This document shows, one piece after another, positions 15,706 to 56,745 of a stretch of DNA of 64,000 nucleotides (positions are counted from its first letter, which is position 1; each line of letters opens with the position of its first letter). A program made the translations under genes and the position numbers. This stretch comes from Metabacillus sp. B2-18. Its GTDB lineage: Bacteria; Bacillota; Bacilli; Bacillales; Bacillaceae. The notes beneath the pieces are model-generated. The model made no database searches. It was not told the origin of the DNA and saw only the letters and a list, made by a program, of their open reading frames with translations. Location: assembly GCF_021117275.1 (NCBI RefSeq), contig NZ_CP088245.1, forward strand, positions 1,029,501 through 1,093,500, in the 5' to 3' direction.

Positions 15706-15800
15706 AATCGCGGATGAAATGAAATAATCGCAGATAAAACTCTAAAATCGCGGATAAAGTGTTCAGAATCGCAGATAAACCCTTCAAAATCGCAGATAAA
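15706..15800. repeat. Five short repeats AATCGC(A/G)GATAAA with 20-21 bp spacing
   Basis: Copies start at 15706, 15726, 15746, 15767 and 15788, varying only slightly (the first reads GATGAAA). The spacing is close to two helical turns. The rest of 15544-16000 holds no gene; open frames across it on the minus strand are simply the repeat being translated. Its role is unknown. Confidence 0.7.
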
Positions 15801-15875
15801 TTTATAATTAACATAAAACGGTCTGAATTTTTCTCAGTAGTGCATTTAAAATGACCTGATTTCATGTTAATAATA

Positions 15876-27530: not shown

Positions 27531-27788
27531 GTCTCGATCCAAGTGGAATCGGGACACAACCGGTGTTATGAGCAAAGTTATGTCCCGATTCAAGTGGAAT
27601 CGGGACATAACTTGGTGGTAGGAGTACGCTTCTGTCTCGATACAAGGAGAATCGGGACAAACCTCGGCGTTATGAGCAAGCGTCAGTCCCGATACAAGGG
27701 TAATCGGGACAAACCACGGTGTTATGAGCAAGCTTCTGTCTCGATACAAGGGTAATCGGGACAAACCTCGGTAGTTTGAGCAAGCTTC
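27531..27788. repeat. 52-bp palindromic repeat array A1, left part (5 units)
   Basis: Units start at 27531, 27582, 27634, 27686 and 27738. Each holds a 25-bp palindrome with arms GTC(C/T)CGAT and ATCGGGAC and a 9-nt loop such as ACAAGGGTA, then a linker of about 27 bp (AAACCTCGGTGTTATGAGCAAGCTTCT-like). The array continues after an IS21 insertion at 29971. Removing the IS keeps the 52-bp register, so the two parts were one array. Confidence 0.9.
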
Positions 27789-27841
27789 TGTAAATGTCAA
27801 GCTAACGATGTACAATTTTGATCGTTTAAGAATGTACAAAA

Positions 27842-28612
27842 TTAATCATCATCTTCTTTTTGTAAATGATCCTTAATTCTATAAGAGGGACCAACAATAT
27901 TGACAACTGTTGCGTGGTGTAATACACGATCTAATATTGCATTCGCTAATTTAGAATCCTGGAACACCGCATCCCACTCTTTAAAGCTAATGTTTGTAGT
28001 TAAGATTGTACTTTTCTTTTCATATCTCAAATCAATTAGCTGAAAGAATAGTTTGGCATCTTCTTTGTCAATTGGAAGGTAACCAATTTCATCAATAATT
28101 AGTAATTTATATTTCCCATAGTGCTTTAATCGAGACTCTAAGCGATTTTCTAGCTTTGCCTTTTTCAAGTTTAAGATAAGTTCATTACATTTAATAAAAT
28201 AGGTACTTGTTCGTTTTTTGGCTGCAGCGATTCCAATCGAAGTCGCTAAGTGAGTTTTGCCAACACCACTAGTTCCCATGAAGATAATATTCTGTTTATC
28301 TTCGATAAAACGCAGAGAAAGAAAATCAAGAATTTGTTGTTTATTTATCGTTGGTTGAAAATCAAAGTTAAACTCATTTATCTCTTTACGGTGGGGAAAA
28401 GCCCCCACCTTAACCATTGAATTTATCATTGTTTTCTCACGAACATCTATTTCATAGTTCGTTAATTTCATCAATGTGTCAACGAGAGATAATTCATTCT
28501 TGGTACTAAAATCAATGGTATCGTTAAGATGAGTAATCATCTGTTTTAAGTTTAAATATTCTAAATTACTTACTAATTGTTGATAACTACTATTCAATTT
28601 TATACACCTCAT
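27842..28612 (-). CDS. istB: IS21-family helper ATPase IstB
   Basis: The 256-residue AAA+ ATPase is related to DnaC. It has a Walker A motif (FMGTSGVGKTHLATSIG) and Walker B LLIIDEIGYLPID, followed by a sensor region (STILTTNISFKEW). It remodels target DNA and activates IstA. It overlaps the end of istA by 23 bp, suggesting coupled translation. The frame is complete. Confidence 0.92.
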   Translation of the reverse strand: MRCIKLNSSYQQLVSNLEYLNLKQMITHLNDTIDFSTKNELSLVDTLMKLTNYEIDVREKTMINSMVKVGAFPHRKEINEFNFDFQPTINKQQILDFLSLRFIEDKQNIIFMGTSGVGKTHLATSIGIAAAKKRTSTYFIKCNELILNLKKAKLENRLESRLKHYGKYKLLIIDEIGYLPIDKEDAKLFFQLIDLRYEKKSTILTTNISFKEWDAVFQDSKLANAILDRVLHHATVVNIVGPSYRIKDHLQKEDDD

Positions 28613-29888
28613 CCATTGCCAGTAGATTCTTTTTAGCTAGCTCATCAATATCAGGATAGTCTGGCATTCCCCGTGACAATACGTCTGTATAATGTTCTTC
28701 CTTATAATTCAACACCTTATTACTGATTCGATGTTGAGCGATCAAATCCGTGTTATAATATACATGTATGTGATCGTCATAGACTTGTAAACCAACGGTT
28801 TTCCCTTTGTATTCAGCTGGTACTGAATACTGGTTTGATTTGTACGTAATCATGCTCGCAGGGTTAACCTTTACAAGCTTGTGTTTGATCTTATAAGAGT
28901 CTCTTATTTCTTTCCTTGGTAGGGGGAGTAAGTGACTCTTTTCTTGTTTTAAAGCAAGTATTGGAATCTTTCTATTTCCTTGATTAAAACTTTGATTATG
29001 GCGTTCACAAAGCTTTTGTACAAATTGGTGAAGTCCTTCGTAAGTGAATTTCCCCTGATAAGCATGAATCTCATCTAAGAGCTTCATAATACTCTCTACT
29101 TTCCCTTTTGTCCTTGGCCTTCCTGCAATACAAGGTTTGATTTCAAATCCACTATCACTGGCAAACTGTTCAAATCGTTCATTAACCACTCCTTTTGAAT
29201 ACTCTGTTCTATGTTCATCCATTACTGTTTTCATATTGTCCGTTAAAATGATCTTTGGTACTCCACCAATTGCTTCAAAGCACTCCATTAAAAAGGACAT
29301 TAATATACTTTGTGATTTGGATATGGTTAAACCATAAGACTTAAACCTTGAATTTCCTAACACCAACACTCCTACATTAACGTGTATAATCTCCCCATCA
29401 CACGTTATGTATTTTATGTTCTCCTTCCAGTCGAATTGAGCCTGTTCCCCCGGAGGGGTTTCATAACGAACAACAGATTGTGCAGCTTGAGTTCTTTTAC
29501 CATCGGTAAAATATGCTTGGAACTCAGGTTTGTTTGATATGTATCGTCGGAAAGATGACTGGGAACAGTTCAAACTATGGTTATCCTTTAAGTACTCCCA
29601 AAGAACTCTCTTGTAGTAAAAAGTTTGTATTGAATCCTTTGAGAGTAAGTCTGATATAACTTCATATAACTCATCTATTCTAGATTTTCTATTACGGGTT
29701 TTACTTGGCCCCTTTCCATTTAAATATCGATCCACAGTCCTCCGATCTACTCCCAATTCTCGCCCTATCTTACTTTTATTTATTTTCATGTTTAAGCTCT
29801 CCATTAGAAATTTTAACTTTGGTAAATCTTCTAGACTTTTTACTTCTATCTCTGTCGTTAAATCTAGCTGTACATGCATTCTCTCCAC
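28590..29888 (-). CDS. istA: IS21-family transposase IstA
   Basis: The 432-residue transposase has an N-terminal helix-turn-helix (SKIGRELGVDRRTVDRYLNG) and an rve catalytic core. The first Asp is in AQFDWKENI, the second in ILTDNMKTV and the Glu in GRPRTKGKVESIMKLL. A C-terminal beta-rich segment (YSVPAEYKGKTVGLQVYDDH) matches the Mu-type domain of IstA. The start was set at the TTG/ATG region near 29888; an ATG one or a few codons in (MHVQLDLTT) is equally good. The gene is intact, so the element may be mobile. Confidence 0.9.
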   Translation of the reverse strand: MERMHVQLDLTTEIEVKSLEDLPKLKFLMESLNMKINKSKIGRELGVDRRTVDRYLNGKGPSKTRNRKSRIDELYEVISDLLSKDSIQTFYYKRVLWEYLKDNHSLNCSQSSFRRYISNKPEFQAYFTDGKRTQAAQSVVRYETPPGEQAQFDWKENIKYITCDGEIIHVNVGVLVLGNSRFKSYGLTISKSQSILMSFLMECFEAIGGVPKIILTDNMKTVMDEHRTEYSKGVVNERFEQFASDSGFEIKPCIAGRPRTKGKVESIMKLLDEIHAYQGKFTYEGLHQFVQKLCERHNQSFNQGNRKIPILALKQEKSHLLPLPRKEIRDSYKIKHKLVKVNPASMITYKSNQYSVPAEYKGKTVGLQVYDDHIHVYYNTDLIAQHRISNKVLNYKEEHYTDVLSRGMPDYPDIDELAKKNLLAMDEVYKIE

Positions 29889-29970
29889 CTCAAACTAAGT
29901 ATGCATGTACATCACAAAACTGTACATTTTTATGTAATCATCTTTGTTCATTATTAAATTAGCATTTATA

Positions 29971-30833
29971 GCTTCTGTCCCGATACAAGGGTAATCGGGA
30001 CAGAACTTGGTAGTACGAGAAAGTTTCTGTCCCGATACAAGGGTAATCGGGACAAACCACGGTGTTATGAGCAAGCTTCAGTCCTGATACAAGGGTAATC
30101 GGGACATAACTTGGTAGTATGAGCAAGCTTCAGTCCCGATACAAGGAGAATCGGGACAAACCTCGGCGTTATGAGCAAGCTTCAGTCCCGATACAAGGGT
30201 AATCGGGACATAACTTGGTAGTATGAGCAAGCTTCTGTCTCGATACAAGGAGAATCGGGACAAACCTCGGCGTTATGAGCAAGCTTCAGTCCCGATACAA
30301 GGAGAATCGGGACAAACCACGGCGTTATGAGCAAGCTTCAGTCCCGATACAAGGAGAATCGGGACAAACCACGGTGTTATGAGCAAGCTTCTGTCTCGAT
30401 ACAAGGGTAATCGGGACAAACCACGGTGTTATGAGCAAGCTTCAGTCCCGATACAAGGGTAATCGGGACAAACCTCGGCGTTATGAGCAAGCCTCAGTCC
30501 CGATACAAGGGTAATCGGGACATAACTTGGTAGTACGAGCAAGTTTCTGTCCCGATACAAGGGTAATCGGGACAAACCACGGTGTTATGAGCAAGCTTCA
30601 GTCCCGATACAAGGGTAATCGGGACAAACCACGGTGTTATGAGCAAGCTTCAGTCCCGATACAAGGGTAATCGGGACAAACCACGGTGTTACGAGCAAAC
30701 TTCAGTCCCGATACAAGGGTAATCGGGACAAACCACGGCGTTATGAGCAAGCTTCAGTCCCGATACAAGGATAATCGGGACAAACCACGGTGTTATGAGC
30801 AAGCTTCAGTCCCGATACAAGGGTAATCGGGAC
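29971..30833. repeat. 52-bp palindromic repeat array A1, right part (17 units)
   Basis: Palindromes begin at 29977 and then at every 52 bp without a single indel up to 30809. The core is GTCCCGAT, a loop (ACAAGGGTA or ACAAGGAGA), and ATCGGGAC. The linker is about 27 bp with variants of AAACCACGGTGTTATGAGCA then AGCTTCA. Substitutions between units are few and often shared by non-adjacent units, which suggests exchange or duplication within the array. Long open frames seen across it are the repeat read in rotating frames. Confidence 0.92.
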
Positions 30834-31014
30834 AAACCTCGGTGAATTGGATTTAGTATCTGTAGACTGCAAATTTAATGGTAATTATTTTGACTTATCA
30901 GCTGGAGAAATCAGGAAAATCGCTGTTAAAAAAGAAAGTTTAAGTGAACACCTTAGACTTGATTCTTTTAAAGTGCAGTTAACATTAAGGGGTGTTTACG
31001 ACATTTCATCTTAA
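30834..31014 (+). pseudogene. C-terminal remnant of a GH2-type glycosidase-like gene
   Basis: Directly after the last palindrome, an open frame without a start codon runs to TAA at 31012-31014. It encodes about 57 residues including VDCKFNGNYFDLSAGEIRKI and VQLTLRGVYDISS. The NYFDL-x-x-GE pattern resembles the terminal beta domain of GH2 beta-mannosidase-like enzymes, so this looks like the 3' stump of such a gene whose front was lost where the array now stands. The family call is tentative. Confidence 0.45.
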
Positions 31015-36905: not shown

Positions 36906-37862
36906 ATGTATAAAGAGCCAATATTTTTAGAGCCTGTTTTTCAAGAAAGAATTTGGGGTGGCCAAAAGCTGCAAACTGAATTTGGGTATAAAATTCCCAA
37001 TGAAAAAACTGGGGAAGCTTGGGTAATCTCTGCACATCCAAATGGTCCAAGTGTTATCAAGAATGGACCTTTAGCAGGAAAAACATTAGAGGAAGCTTGG
37101 GAAGAACACGGAGAGCTATTTAATAAAAATGCATCTAATAATGAAGAATATCCTTTGCTTGTTAAAATTTTAGATGCGAATGCAGATTTATCTGTTCAGG
37201 TTCATCCAGATGATCATTATGCACGAGAAGTAGAAGGTGTTCCTTATGGAAAAACAGAGTGCTGGTATGTTCTCAGTGCAGAGGAAGGTGCCGAGCTTGT
37301 TTTAGGACACCATGCAAAATCAAAAAAAGAGCTTGAAAAGATGCTTCAAAATCAAGAATGGGATTCATTTTTACGTCGTAAAAAAGTAAAAGCGGGTGAT
37401 TTTGTTTATGTACCAAGTGGCACCATTCATGCAATCGGTAAAGGAATTGTCATTTTAGAAACACAGCAAAGCTCTGATATTACTTATCGCGTTTATGATT
37501 ATGATCGCACTGATGCTAATGGTCAAAAGCGTGACCTACATTTAGATCGTTCAATAGAAGTGACGACAGTCCCTCACCAGGATTATGAAACAGCGCAAAG
37601 TGAAAGGATTGTAGGTGATCTTACCGAGAAGAAATTAGTAGAGGCCGAATATTTCACAGTCTATCATTGGAAGTTGAGTGGCGAGGCATCATTGACACTT
37701 CAGCATGATTTCTTACAGGTTAGTGTAACGGCAGGAAAAGGAACAATTACAGTAGATGATCATGTTTTCTTAATTGAAAAAGGAACACATTTTGTTCTTC
37801 CACATGGAGTTGGAGAATACCAGCTGTCTGGTGAAGCAGAGTTTGTTGTATCACACGTTTAA
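36906..37862 (+). CDS. manA: Mannose-6-phosphate isomerase, class I (ManA)
   Basis: The 318-residue type I phosphomannose isomerase converts mannose-6-phosphate, the product of ManP, to fructose-6-phosphate. Zinc-site residues appear in SVQVHPDDHYA and KTECWYVL, and the signature YVPSGTIHAIGKG is present. Length agrees with Bacillus ManA (about 315). The ATG follows GGAGGTAGTGT and the gene is 27 bp after manP, so both are co-transcribed. A terminator follows, and then repeat array B. Confidence 0.93.
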   Translation: MYKEPIFLEPVFQERIWGGQKLQTEFGYKIPNEKTGEAWVISAHPNGPSVIKNGPLAGKTLEEAWEEHGELFNKNASNNEEYPLLVKILDANADLSVQVHPDDHYAREVEGVPYGKTECWYVLSAEEGAELVLGHHAKSKKELEKMLQNQEWDSFLRRKKVKAGDFVYVPSGTIHAIGKGIVILETQQSSDITYRVYDYDRTDANGQKRDLHLDRSIEVTTVPHQDYETAQSERIVGDLTEKKLVEAEYFTVYHWKLSGEASLTLQHDFLQVSVTAGKGTITVDDHVFLIEKGTHFVLPHGVGEYQLSGEAEFVVSHV

Positions 37863-37867
37863 TATGG

Positions 37868-37898
37868 GAAAGGCCAAATCATTTTGATTTGGCTTTTC
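37868..37898 (+). terminator. Terminator of manPA
   Basis: GGCCAAATC and GATTTGGC surround ATTTT and are followed by TTTTCAT, a few bases after the manA stop codon. Confidence 0.75.
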
Positions 37899-37940
37899 AT
37901 ATTAAAAGACACCGCGGTTTCAACTATCTTACTTGGAGAT

Positions 37941-38432
37941 GGTCTTCACTGGCGGAATGAAGACCACGGTTGCAGTAAATTTACTCGGAAATGGTCATCA
38001 TGGGAGTAATGAAGACCAACGTGGCAGAAATTTTGCTTTGAAATGGTCATCATGAGAGTAATGAAGACCAACGTGGCAGATATTTTATTCGGAAATGGTC
38101 ATCATGGGAGTAATGAAGACCATCATAGCAGAAAATTTGTTCGGAAATGGTCATCATGGGAGTAATGAAGACCAACGTGGCAGAAATTTTGCTTTGAAAT
38201 GGTCATCATGAGAGTAATGAAGACCAACGTGGCAGATATTTTATTCGGAAATGGTCATCATGGGAGTAATAAGACCATCATAGCAGAAAATTTGTTCGGA
38301 AATGGTCATCATGGGAGTAATGAAGACCAACGTGGCAGAAATTTTGCTTTGAAATGGTCATCATGAGAGTAATGAAGACAAACGTGGCAGTAAATTTACT
38401 TGGAAATGGCCTTCATGACCTTCAATATATTT
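37941..38432. repeat. 52-bp palindromic repeat array B (10 units), unrelated in sequence to array A
   Basis: Palindromes start at 37941, 37993, 38045, 38097, 38149, 38201, 38253, 38304, 38356 and 38408. The spacing is 52 bp, except one unit with a 1-nt deletion. The first unit is a perfect palindrome, GGTCTTCA-N9-TGAAGACC; later units read GGTCATCA...TGAAGACC with one mismatch. Linkers cycle through three variants (GTGGCAGAAATTTTGCTTTG, GTGGCAGATATTTTATTCGG and ATAGCAGAAAATTTGTTCGG), giving a higher-order repeat of 156 bp. The 25-bp core and 27-bp linker equal those of array A. Confidence 0.9.
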
Positions 38433-38463: not shown

Positions 38464-38501
38464 AAAGGATCTATTTCCATTTAGAAATAGATCCTTTTTC
38501 G
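38464..38501. terminator. Hairpin terminator between array B and the SDR gene
   Basis: AAAGGATCTATTTC and GAAATAGATCCTTT form a long stem with a T run on the plus side. It separates the array from the convergent minus-strand SDR gene, which ends at 38517. Confidence 0.75.
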
Positions 38502-42399: not shown

Positions 42400-42842
42400 A
42401 ATTCGATAACCTGGGAATCGAGACAGGAATGAGGAAGAAGTGTGAAATCTTGTCCCAATAGTCGGGGAATCGAGACACACCGGAGAAAGAAAAGCGAAAA
42501 TGTGTCTCGATACTAGAAGAATCGGGACAAGATCAAGCAAGAAAAGTGTAATTGTGTCCCAATAACTGGAGAATCGGGACACAGCAGCGGAAGAAGTGTG
42601 AAATCGTGTCCCGATAGCCGGGGAATCGAGACACACCAGGGTAAGAAAAGCGAAAATGTGTCTCGATACCAGGAGAATCGGGAAAAGATCAAGCAAGAAA
42701 AGCAAAATCATGTCCCGATAGCCAGAGGATCGAGACAAGACCGAGTAAGAAAAGCGAAATCATGTCTCGATAACCTTAGAATCGAGACATGATCAAGCAA
42801 GTAAAGCCAAACCATGTCCCAATACAGCTGCATGAAATACAG
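42400..42842. repeat. 52-bp palindromic repeat array A2 (about 9 units)
   Basis: Cores begin at about 42400 (degenerate), 42452, 42504, 42556, 42608, 42660, 42712, 42764 and 42816 (partial), exactly 52 bp apart. The core is GTC(C/T)C(G/A)ATA...GAATCG(A/G)GAC, the same palindrome as array A1. The linker is different, for example AAGATCAAGCAAGAAAAGCA. Linkers are similar within this array and unlike A1 or A3. The array lies upstream of the threonine ammonia-lyase gene. The remaining 150 bp to that gene hold its promoter region. Confidence 0.88.
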
Positions 42843-56019: not shown

Positions 56020-56745
56020 GTTTCGAAATAGGTGGGATTGGGACAGGAACCGGTAGATAGAATAGGCTACAGTCTCGATACAGGTAGAATCGGGACATAA
56101 ACCGGTGGAAAGATCAGGGTATTGTCTCGATACAAGTAGAATCGGGACATAAACCGTCGGCTAGAACAGGCTACTGTCCCGATACAAGTAGAATCGGGAC
56201 ATAAACCGGTGGAAAGATCAGGGTATTGTCTCGATACAAGTAGAATCGGGACATAAACCGGTGGCTAGAACAGGCTACTGTCCCGATACAAGTAGAATCG
56301 GGACATAAACCGGTGGAAAGATCAGGGTATTGTCTCGATACAAGTAGAATCGGGACATAAACCGGTAGAAAGATCAGGGTATTGTCTCGATACAAGTAGA
56401 ATCGGGACATAAACCGTCGGCTAGAACAGGCTACTGTCCCGATACAAGTAGAATCGGGACATAAACCGGTAGAAAGATCAGACTACAGTCTCGATACAGG
56501 CAGAATCGGGACAGAAACTGGTGGAAAGATCAAGCCATAGTCTCGATACAGGCAGAATCGGGACAGAAACTGGTGGAAAGATCAAGCCACAGTCTCGATA
56601 CAGGCAGAATCGGGACAGAAACTGGTGGAAAGATCAAGCCACAGTCTTGATACAGGCAGAATCGGGACAGAACCCGTTGGAAAGATCAGAATACTGTCTC
56701 GAACTAGGCAAAACCAAAACCGGGACAGAAACTGTTCCCGAGACC
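56020..56745. repeat. 52-bp palindromic repeat array A3 (14 units) between lacZ and the alpha-galactosidase gene
   Basis: A degenerate unit at 56020 is followed by 13 units starting at 56072 and then every 52 bp to 56696, with no indel. The core is GTC(C/T)CGATACAAGTAGAATC then GGGAC. The linkers are ATAAACCGGTGGAAAGATCA variants. Two linker types partly alternate in the middle, making a 104-bp higher-order repeat. The array sits between two genes of one functional cluster on the same strand. Degenerate pieces continue to about 56770. Confidence 0.9.

Follow-up and report, generated by a model that had tools for sequence, protein, structure and literature searches.

The window analyzed here is a stretch of 64,000 nucleotides (contig C1:1029501-1093500) in the 5.47-Mb genome of Metabacillus sp. 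B2-18 (hereafter G000). Array B (37929..38432), which is purine-rich on the + strand, lies between a gene for a type I phosphomannose isomerase (PF20511; mannose-6-phosphate isomerase-like; 36906..37862, + strand) and a convergent gene for a short-chain dehydrogenase (PF00106; 38517..39233, - strand). A terminator-like hairpin with a T run (37872..37898, + strand), absent from the consensus scan, separates the isomerase-like gene from the array, and a bidirectional terminator-like hairpin found in the consensus scan (38464..38497) separates the array from the dehydrogenase gene, each of the two being detected by one of two scans only.

Array B consists of ten 52-bp units, in which 27-bp cores of the form TGGTC[A/T]TCAT-N7-ATGAAGACCA alternate with 25-bp spacers; of the tenth, truncated unit only the left half is present. 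The cores start at 37941, 37993, 38045, 38097, 38149, 38201, 38253, 38304, 38356 and 38408. Six steps of 52 bp are followed by one of 51 bp and two more of 52 bp (eight of 52, one of 51), and the short step results from a 1-nt deletion within the seventh core. These positions bear out the preliminary description of the locus, which had reported ten units at a 52-bp period with a single 1-nt deletion. Its layout of 8-bp arms around a 9-nt loop holds exactly for the core that it described (37940..37966, no strand assigned), GGTCTTCA-N9-TGAAGACC with perfect 8-bp arms, but this first unit is atypical of the array: six other units read GGTCATCAT-N7-ATGAAGACC, with 9-bp arms interrupted by a single internal A/A mismatch. 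Units are thus usually laid out as 9-7-9, this mismatch included, or as 10-7-10 if the outer T/A pair is counted; the right arm of the ninth is altered further. In TRF the array scores 649 for period 52 and 812 for period 156, and a 156-bp higher-order repeat of three units (93% match) spans 37935-38417, which suggests that blocks of units have been duplicated within it. With up to two mismatches allowed, G000 contains 135 occurrences of the core pattern, as against none of a reversed-pattern control; the pattern is therefore not a chance occurrence.

The window contains not two but five 52-bp arrays, as detected by TRF. The other four tracts, all assigned to the + strand, belong to family A, with cores GTCYCGAT-N9-ATCGRGAC: a left part (27531..27791), a right part (29970..30844), a tract of more divergent units (42404..42824) and a tract of about 13 units (56040..56702). 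An IS21-family element (27789..29969, - strand; IstB at 27842-28612, IstA-like integrase at 28590-29888), flanked by a 6-bp duplication (AGCTTC) at the border of spacer and core, lies between the first two tracts. These tracts are contiguous in the relative G006, indicating that they are one array split by the element. The 8-9-8 layout at 52 bp reported earlier for family A is confirmed by 218 exact core matches in G000, with a single match for the reversed control.

A second class of intergenic array with a 21-bp period (two helical turns) combines a conserved AATCGCGGATA with about ten variable bases. It is found at window positions 15706-15801 and at loci L093 (995-1186, 5486-5762 and 9934-10124) and L110 (9097-9399); in genome G014 such arrays lie on opposite strands at early and late chromosome positions. 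A mixed 21/103-bp array with TTGACGTGAT-type direct repeats is present at L047 (16252-16638).

Families and distribution of the 52-bp arrays

Dozens of 52-bp arrays occur in G000, and 27-bp palindromic cores between genes number in the hundreds per genome in G000, G006 and G015 (336 A cores in G006 and 351 in G015). A third core, C (GTCGTTCAT-N7-ATGAACGAC), has 21 matches in G000. As exact patterns, cores A, B and C are found in three, six and four of 21 genus genomes, respectively (for A, three of 60 relatives in all), suggesting that at least these families are dispensable. Families can be mixed with the 52-bp register kept, as in G000, where a C core at 827552 is followed by a B core at 827604, and a B core at 3480935 shares an array with a C core at 3481039. 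Geometry-only sampling of other genus members, which was thin, yielded one further 52-bp array (family D, locus L113 of genome G002) together with 21-bp arrays.

The array position is shared with G006 at all four comparable sites. The orthologous B array in that genome (L144, 19012-19439) has kept its place and has loops and spacers of its own, homogenized within the array, which shows that concerted evolution is fast. On the second contig of G000 (C2, 330 kb), the 60 kb sampled (three 20-kb stretches, L155-L157) contain no array made of at least two exact cores. Spread by phages or plasmids was considered and rejected, as no viral contig holds the C/D/E pattern, the one used in that scan, and no plasmid record is similar to array B.

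GTDB contigs were scanned with TGTCNTTCAT-N7-ATGAANGACA, the one core pattern used on this named collection, which is blind to spacing, and at least 120 loci were obtained. The loci listed come from Neobacillus, Metabacillus, Ureibacillus, Gracilibacillus, Pallidibacillus, Pseudoneobacillus, Peribacillus and other genera, and include Heyndrickxia coagulans and Alkalihalobacillus bogoriensis. Among these listed loci, 193 of 247 pairs of neighboring cores less than 400 bp apart are spaced by exactly 52 bp, 25 by multiples of 52 bp and 14 by 51 bp; 53 of the 120 loci listed have a single exact core match. Records from Lachnospiraceae, Thiohalocapsa and Gallicola have no similar neighboring core and look like chance matches. 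When arrays were built with steps of 50-54 bp allowed, 52 bp was the modal period in 123 of 132 arrays (some rows being halves or duplicates of one array), and single-unit steps of 51 and 53 bp made up 64 and 22 of 885. When 226 loci (3.16 Mb) were scanned by period alone, with six lag-50 matches in runs of masked N dropped, lag 52 was found in 122 of 133 core-holding arrays, and 122 of 125 lag-52 arrays contain a known core, neither being a genome-wide rate because the loci were mostly chosen for their cores. Two of the three lag-52 arrays that have no core pattern are clear variants, TGTCTTTTAT..ATAAAGGACA (L180) and TGTCTTTTA..AAAAGGACA (L285). The third, at L222 (552-712), has three units 52 bp apart that show no clear palindrome; an ordinary pair of palindromes is found some 100 bp away.

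The arms were compared in 131 array consensuses (A, 29; B, 14; others, 88), some of which are halves or duplicates of one array; the arrays are not phylogenetically independent and p-values are optimistic. Arm pairs 3, 4, 6, 7, 8 and 9 vary between families, yet are Watson-Crick in 0.95-0.99 of the consensuses. Pair 5 is CG in 68, TG in 30, CA in 16, TA in 7, GC in 4, AT in 4 and other in 2, and a tenth pair exists in B and the other families and is missing in A. Families end in outer TGTC..GACA or TGGTC..GACCA and most have inner AT..AT; two arm pairs, both changed in a compensatory manner, set B apart from the common family. Arms range from 8 to 10 bp and loops from 7 to about 11 nt, the constants being the 27-bp core and the 25-bp spacer. 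Between A and B, both lengths are preserved although arms differ and the loop changes from 7 to 9 nt. Spacers are near-identical within each array, whereas their interiors are nearly unrelated between arrays (identity of 0.306, compared with 0.282 when shuffled).

On sequence grounds, A, B, C, D/E and the further variants are one superfamily present in many Bacillaceae genera, in which 27 + 25 = 52 bp stays fixed while the arms change. The preliminary description had taken A and B to be unrelated, which is contradicted by their common outer ends, the inner AT..AT common to most families and the two compensatory pairs by which B departs from the common family. What it had said of a shared core size, loop and period stands for core length and period, both fixed while arm letters change, but not for the 8-9-8 layout, which is not constant. 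Further families of the same layout, which it would have counted in support of a shared mechanism, were found (C, D/E and the TGTCTTTTAT variants), and grouping by period irrespective of sequence, as it had proposed, returns 52 bp again and, in these mostly core-selected loci, adds two variants to the known core.

Helical phasing, strand polarity and insertion sites

At 10.4 bp per turn, 52 bp corresponds to five helical turns. In Fourier analysis of the A/T profile, the 10.4-bp term is the largest over all arrays and in the largest group and is third in family B, and in each of three groups it is higher than in any of 200 spacer shuffles; in the plain-A profile of family A, it is within the null range of the shuffles. 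It takes up 0.103 of the power in the arrays, compared with 0.043 in a control set of 1980 intergenic 52-mers from the same genome, relative to which neighboring frequencies are not raised. Spacer and core agree in phase within 0.4 bp overall and 0.2-0.6 bp by family. Taken without its A-rich ends, the inner spacer keeps the phase in the whole set of arrays (z about 5) and also in A and C/D/E, and shows no clear phase in family B alone (z 1.3). This phasing argues for selection on double-stranded helical geometry. As the layout recurs across genera while the letters change, the spacing appears to be read by something.

The arrays are also polar with respect to replication. In G000, purines on the leading strand make up 78% of loops and 69% of spacers, compared with 52.4% of control intergenic DNA. 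Array rows at C1 positions below 2.36 Mb are purine-rich on the + strand in 26 of 26 cases and those above 2.38 Mb are purine-poor on it in 20 of 20; IS-split halves and two single-core rows are counted among them, and the array at 2362523, at the skew switch (purine content of 0.58 on the + strand), is left out of both the counts and the purine composition. This polarity is kept at the arrays at 466698 and 3852584, although both neighboring ORFs are oriented oppositely. The trend is weaker in the named loci: of 120 loci listed, 59 were usable and 52 had a clear skew, and in 39 of these 52 the purine strand is the G-rich strand; 7 of 23 co-directional cases have the purine strand at odds with the genes. 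The Chi motif AGCGG and the SpoIIIE-type motif GAGAAGGG occur in four and none of the 131 consensuses, respectively, and were rejected as causes of the polarity. Flanks in the same consensuses are A-rich on both sides of the core in B and C/D/E and on one side in A. A symmetric double-strand site would require neither the polarity nor the lack of mirror symmetry in the A-rich flanks of B and C/D/E, which is a hint of a single-strand step.

Relative to genes, arrays in the named loci are enriched in convergent gaps (17/45, compared with 38/223 background gaps) and depleted in divergent gaps (4/45, compared with 56/223). Of the 26 gene ends that face 22 hand-listed arrays of G000, 17 are followed by a terminator-like hairpin before the array begins, about four of these hairpins being weak or themselves repeat units.

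Insertion sequences provide another view of array geometry. G000 has thirteen near-full IS256-family copies of two subfamilies, a fourteenth match (27% identity) not being counted; twelve lie inside nine family A arrays and one in a C-run. In the ten copies that are measurable on both sides, 15-18 bp separate the element from the left core and 15-18 bp from the right core, so that the target duplication is centered no more than about 1.5 bp from the middle of the spacer, and two more copies, adjacent to each other, have 16 bp on the free side. Spacer sequences differ between the arrays hit. Were insertions spread evenly and independently over the 52 bp, the chance of finding twelve copies in one 4-bp class would be about (1/13)^11. 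The array has its second dyad at the spacer midpoint, so the element would read the flanking half-sites or a protein bound there; this targeting is seen for family A, in one genome. At L324 (G000:C1:4845403-4848083), two adjoining elements of different subfamilies are located in one family A array. IS256-family elements as makers of the arrays were rejected, because G006 and G015 carry their hundreds of A cores without a match to the transposase query, which did match in G000.

A proposed role and its rivals

The arrays are best read as REP/BIME-like, helically phased, putative DNA-binding arrays that lie mostly behind genes and act as double-stranded DNA, a reading to which we assign a probability of about 0.5. 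A 52-bp unit of five turns would put every palindrome on the same face of the helix, where a dimeric DNA-binding or DNA-wrapping factor might occupy cores side by side, possibly in a cooperative manner. Repeat length would be kept because face alignment matters, whereas loops and spacers would be free in sequence except for A/T phasing and purine bias. The arrays, mostly behind genes, often past a terminator, away from divergent promoters and, in G000, following the direction of replication, would be suited to a role in chromosome architecture or the handling of torsion, as proposed for REP/BIME. Units would be gained and homogenized within each array through recombination or slippage, and IS256-type elements would use the arrays as harmless landing sites, entering at the dyad between two palindromes. 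The mechanism reading geometry that the preliminary description had suggested is indicated by both the 10.4-bp phasing and the midpoint insertions, although the unrelatedness of A and B on which it was argued fails. A bolder version, which we hold only tentatively and consider somewhat doubtful, is that the arrays are an undescribed kind of chromosome-organizing DNA of Bacillaceae, in which a dedicated protein, responding to spacing more than to sequence, wraps or coats replication-polar five-turn units, arms drift in a compensatory manner at fixed 27 + 25 bp, and the IS256 transposase senses the lattice and inserts at its dyad.

The strongest rival, which we regard as improbable but serious, is that these are neutral or selfish tandem repeats whose 52-bp period goes back to a single ancestral array, spread by recombination, and is read by nothing. 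Strong concerted evolution inside arrays, the 156-bp higher-order duplication, the patchy distribution and the preference for non-divergent gaps would all be expected of such repeats; the A/T phasing, the compensatory arm changes and a length that is kept, though spacer interiors are nearly unrelated and 51- and 53-bp steps are common, would not. The covarying, perfect or near-perfect stems and the purine-rich loops and spacers could instead belong to an RNA transcribed from the purine strand, a string of hairpins with unstructured purine linkers. This is unlikely, as polarity follows the replichore even in the two arrays with both neighboring ORFs opposed, a terminator-like hairpin (with the exceptions noted) comes first at most array-facing gene ends, arms show no excess of G-T-type over mismatch-type changes (144:155) relative to unpaired sites (544:616), Rfam 15 has no match in the window at gathering thresholds, and helical phasing is not expected of RNA. 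CsrA-sponge-like RNAs have GGA loops, and an element of this kind was rejected because many array loops have no GGA.

Palindromes with replication polarity might equally form single-stranded DNA hairpins on the lagging-strand template, recognized, as for REPs, by a Y1/RAYT-type or other single-strand enzyme. We consider this quite improbable: Y1 transposase matches occur in 17 of 21 genus genomes and do not track array content, and G013 lacks any Y1 match despite its 14 B cores; no core is present in 16 Y1 loci out of 41 matches or around all five Y1 copies of G000; position tables of the 131 consensuses show no conserved unpaired GTAG or CGTC beside the core; and the helical phasing also speaks against it. 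An origin from RAYTs or REPtrons was rejected on the same lack of association between Y1 genes and arrays. A wobble preference that would mark single-strand hairpins is likewise absent, the raw T.G excess at arm pair 5 (30 versus 16) being confounded with strand mutation bias. With no such preference, a polarity independent of genes and no RAYT link, a single-strand hairpin of either RNA or DNA is the less likely form. CRISPR-like or degenerate CRISPR arrays share with these arrays a palindromic repeat of 27 bp, a spacer of 25 bp and regular spacing, and are refuted on their defining features, so that their probability is negligible: spacers are repeated within each array and not unique, there are dozens of arrays per genome, and Cas1 is found in none of the 21 genus genomes, with nine of 14 control genomes positive.

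Helical spacing that is conserved across genera while sequence drifts is a natural experiment on selection for DNA geometry over sequence, and the arrays may give a practical way in to a nucleoid or topology factor that is possibly unknown. The twelve midpoint insertions are natural probes of array geometry and a ready test of transposase target choice.

Comparison with known repeat systems

Among titles and abstracts retrieved from open-access literature, which leaves most subscription papers outside and is thus weak evidence of novelty, none describes a 52-bp palindrome array of Bacillaceae. No repeat of this kind is named for Bacillaceae in the portions of two papers on REP elements used here (PMC3733652; PMC1525189); the main text of the former mentions no Firmicutes and names Bacillus only for bcr1. 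According to the same portions, bcr1, RUP and EFAR are Gram-positive repeats treated as MITEs with terminal inverted repeats (PMC3733652); like the 52-bp arrays they are intergenic in Bacillus and relatives, but they are not tandem 52-bp arrays.

The closest likeness is to REP/BIME elements, described in those portions as short, high-copy intergenic palindromes, sometimes in tandem, that lie downstream of genes or between convergent genes, form several families per genome and are targets of IS elements (PMC3733652; PMC1525189). Gyrase, DNA polymerase I and IHF are among the partners reported (PMC1525189), and reports of tagged REPs come mainly from Proteobacteria (PMC3733652). The 52-bp arrays resemble REPs in all of these features of placement, copy number, family diversity and IS targeting, and the 27-bp core, at hundreds of copies per genome, falls within the size of 20-40 bp that defines REP palindromes. 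REPs of the GTAG and CGTC super-families carry that tag unpaired at one end, and those of the GTAG type flank an associated RAYT gene. The 52-bp arrays differ in having no conserved GTAG/CGTC tag and no linked RAYT seen, and in their fixed helical period, replication polarity and Bacillaceae hosts.

The insertions extend this likeness. REP-targeting elements listed in the portion used of PMC1525189 are IS1397, ISKpn1, IS621, ISPpu9 and ISRm5, the last of which is, like the elements described here, of the IS256 family. In both systems IS copies are concentrated in intergenic palindromes, and here most copies of one IS family lie in the repeats at a fixed position; that position, in twelve of thirteen copies, is the midpoint of the spacer between two palindromes, with spacer sequences that differ.
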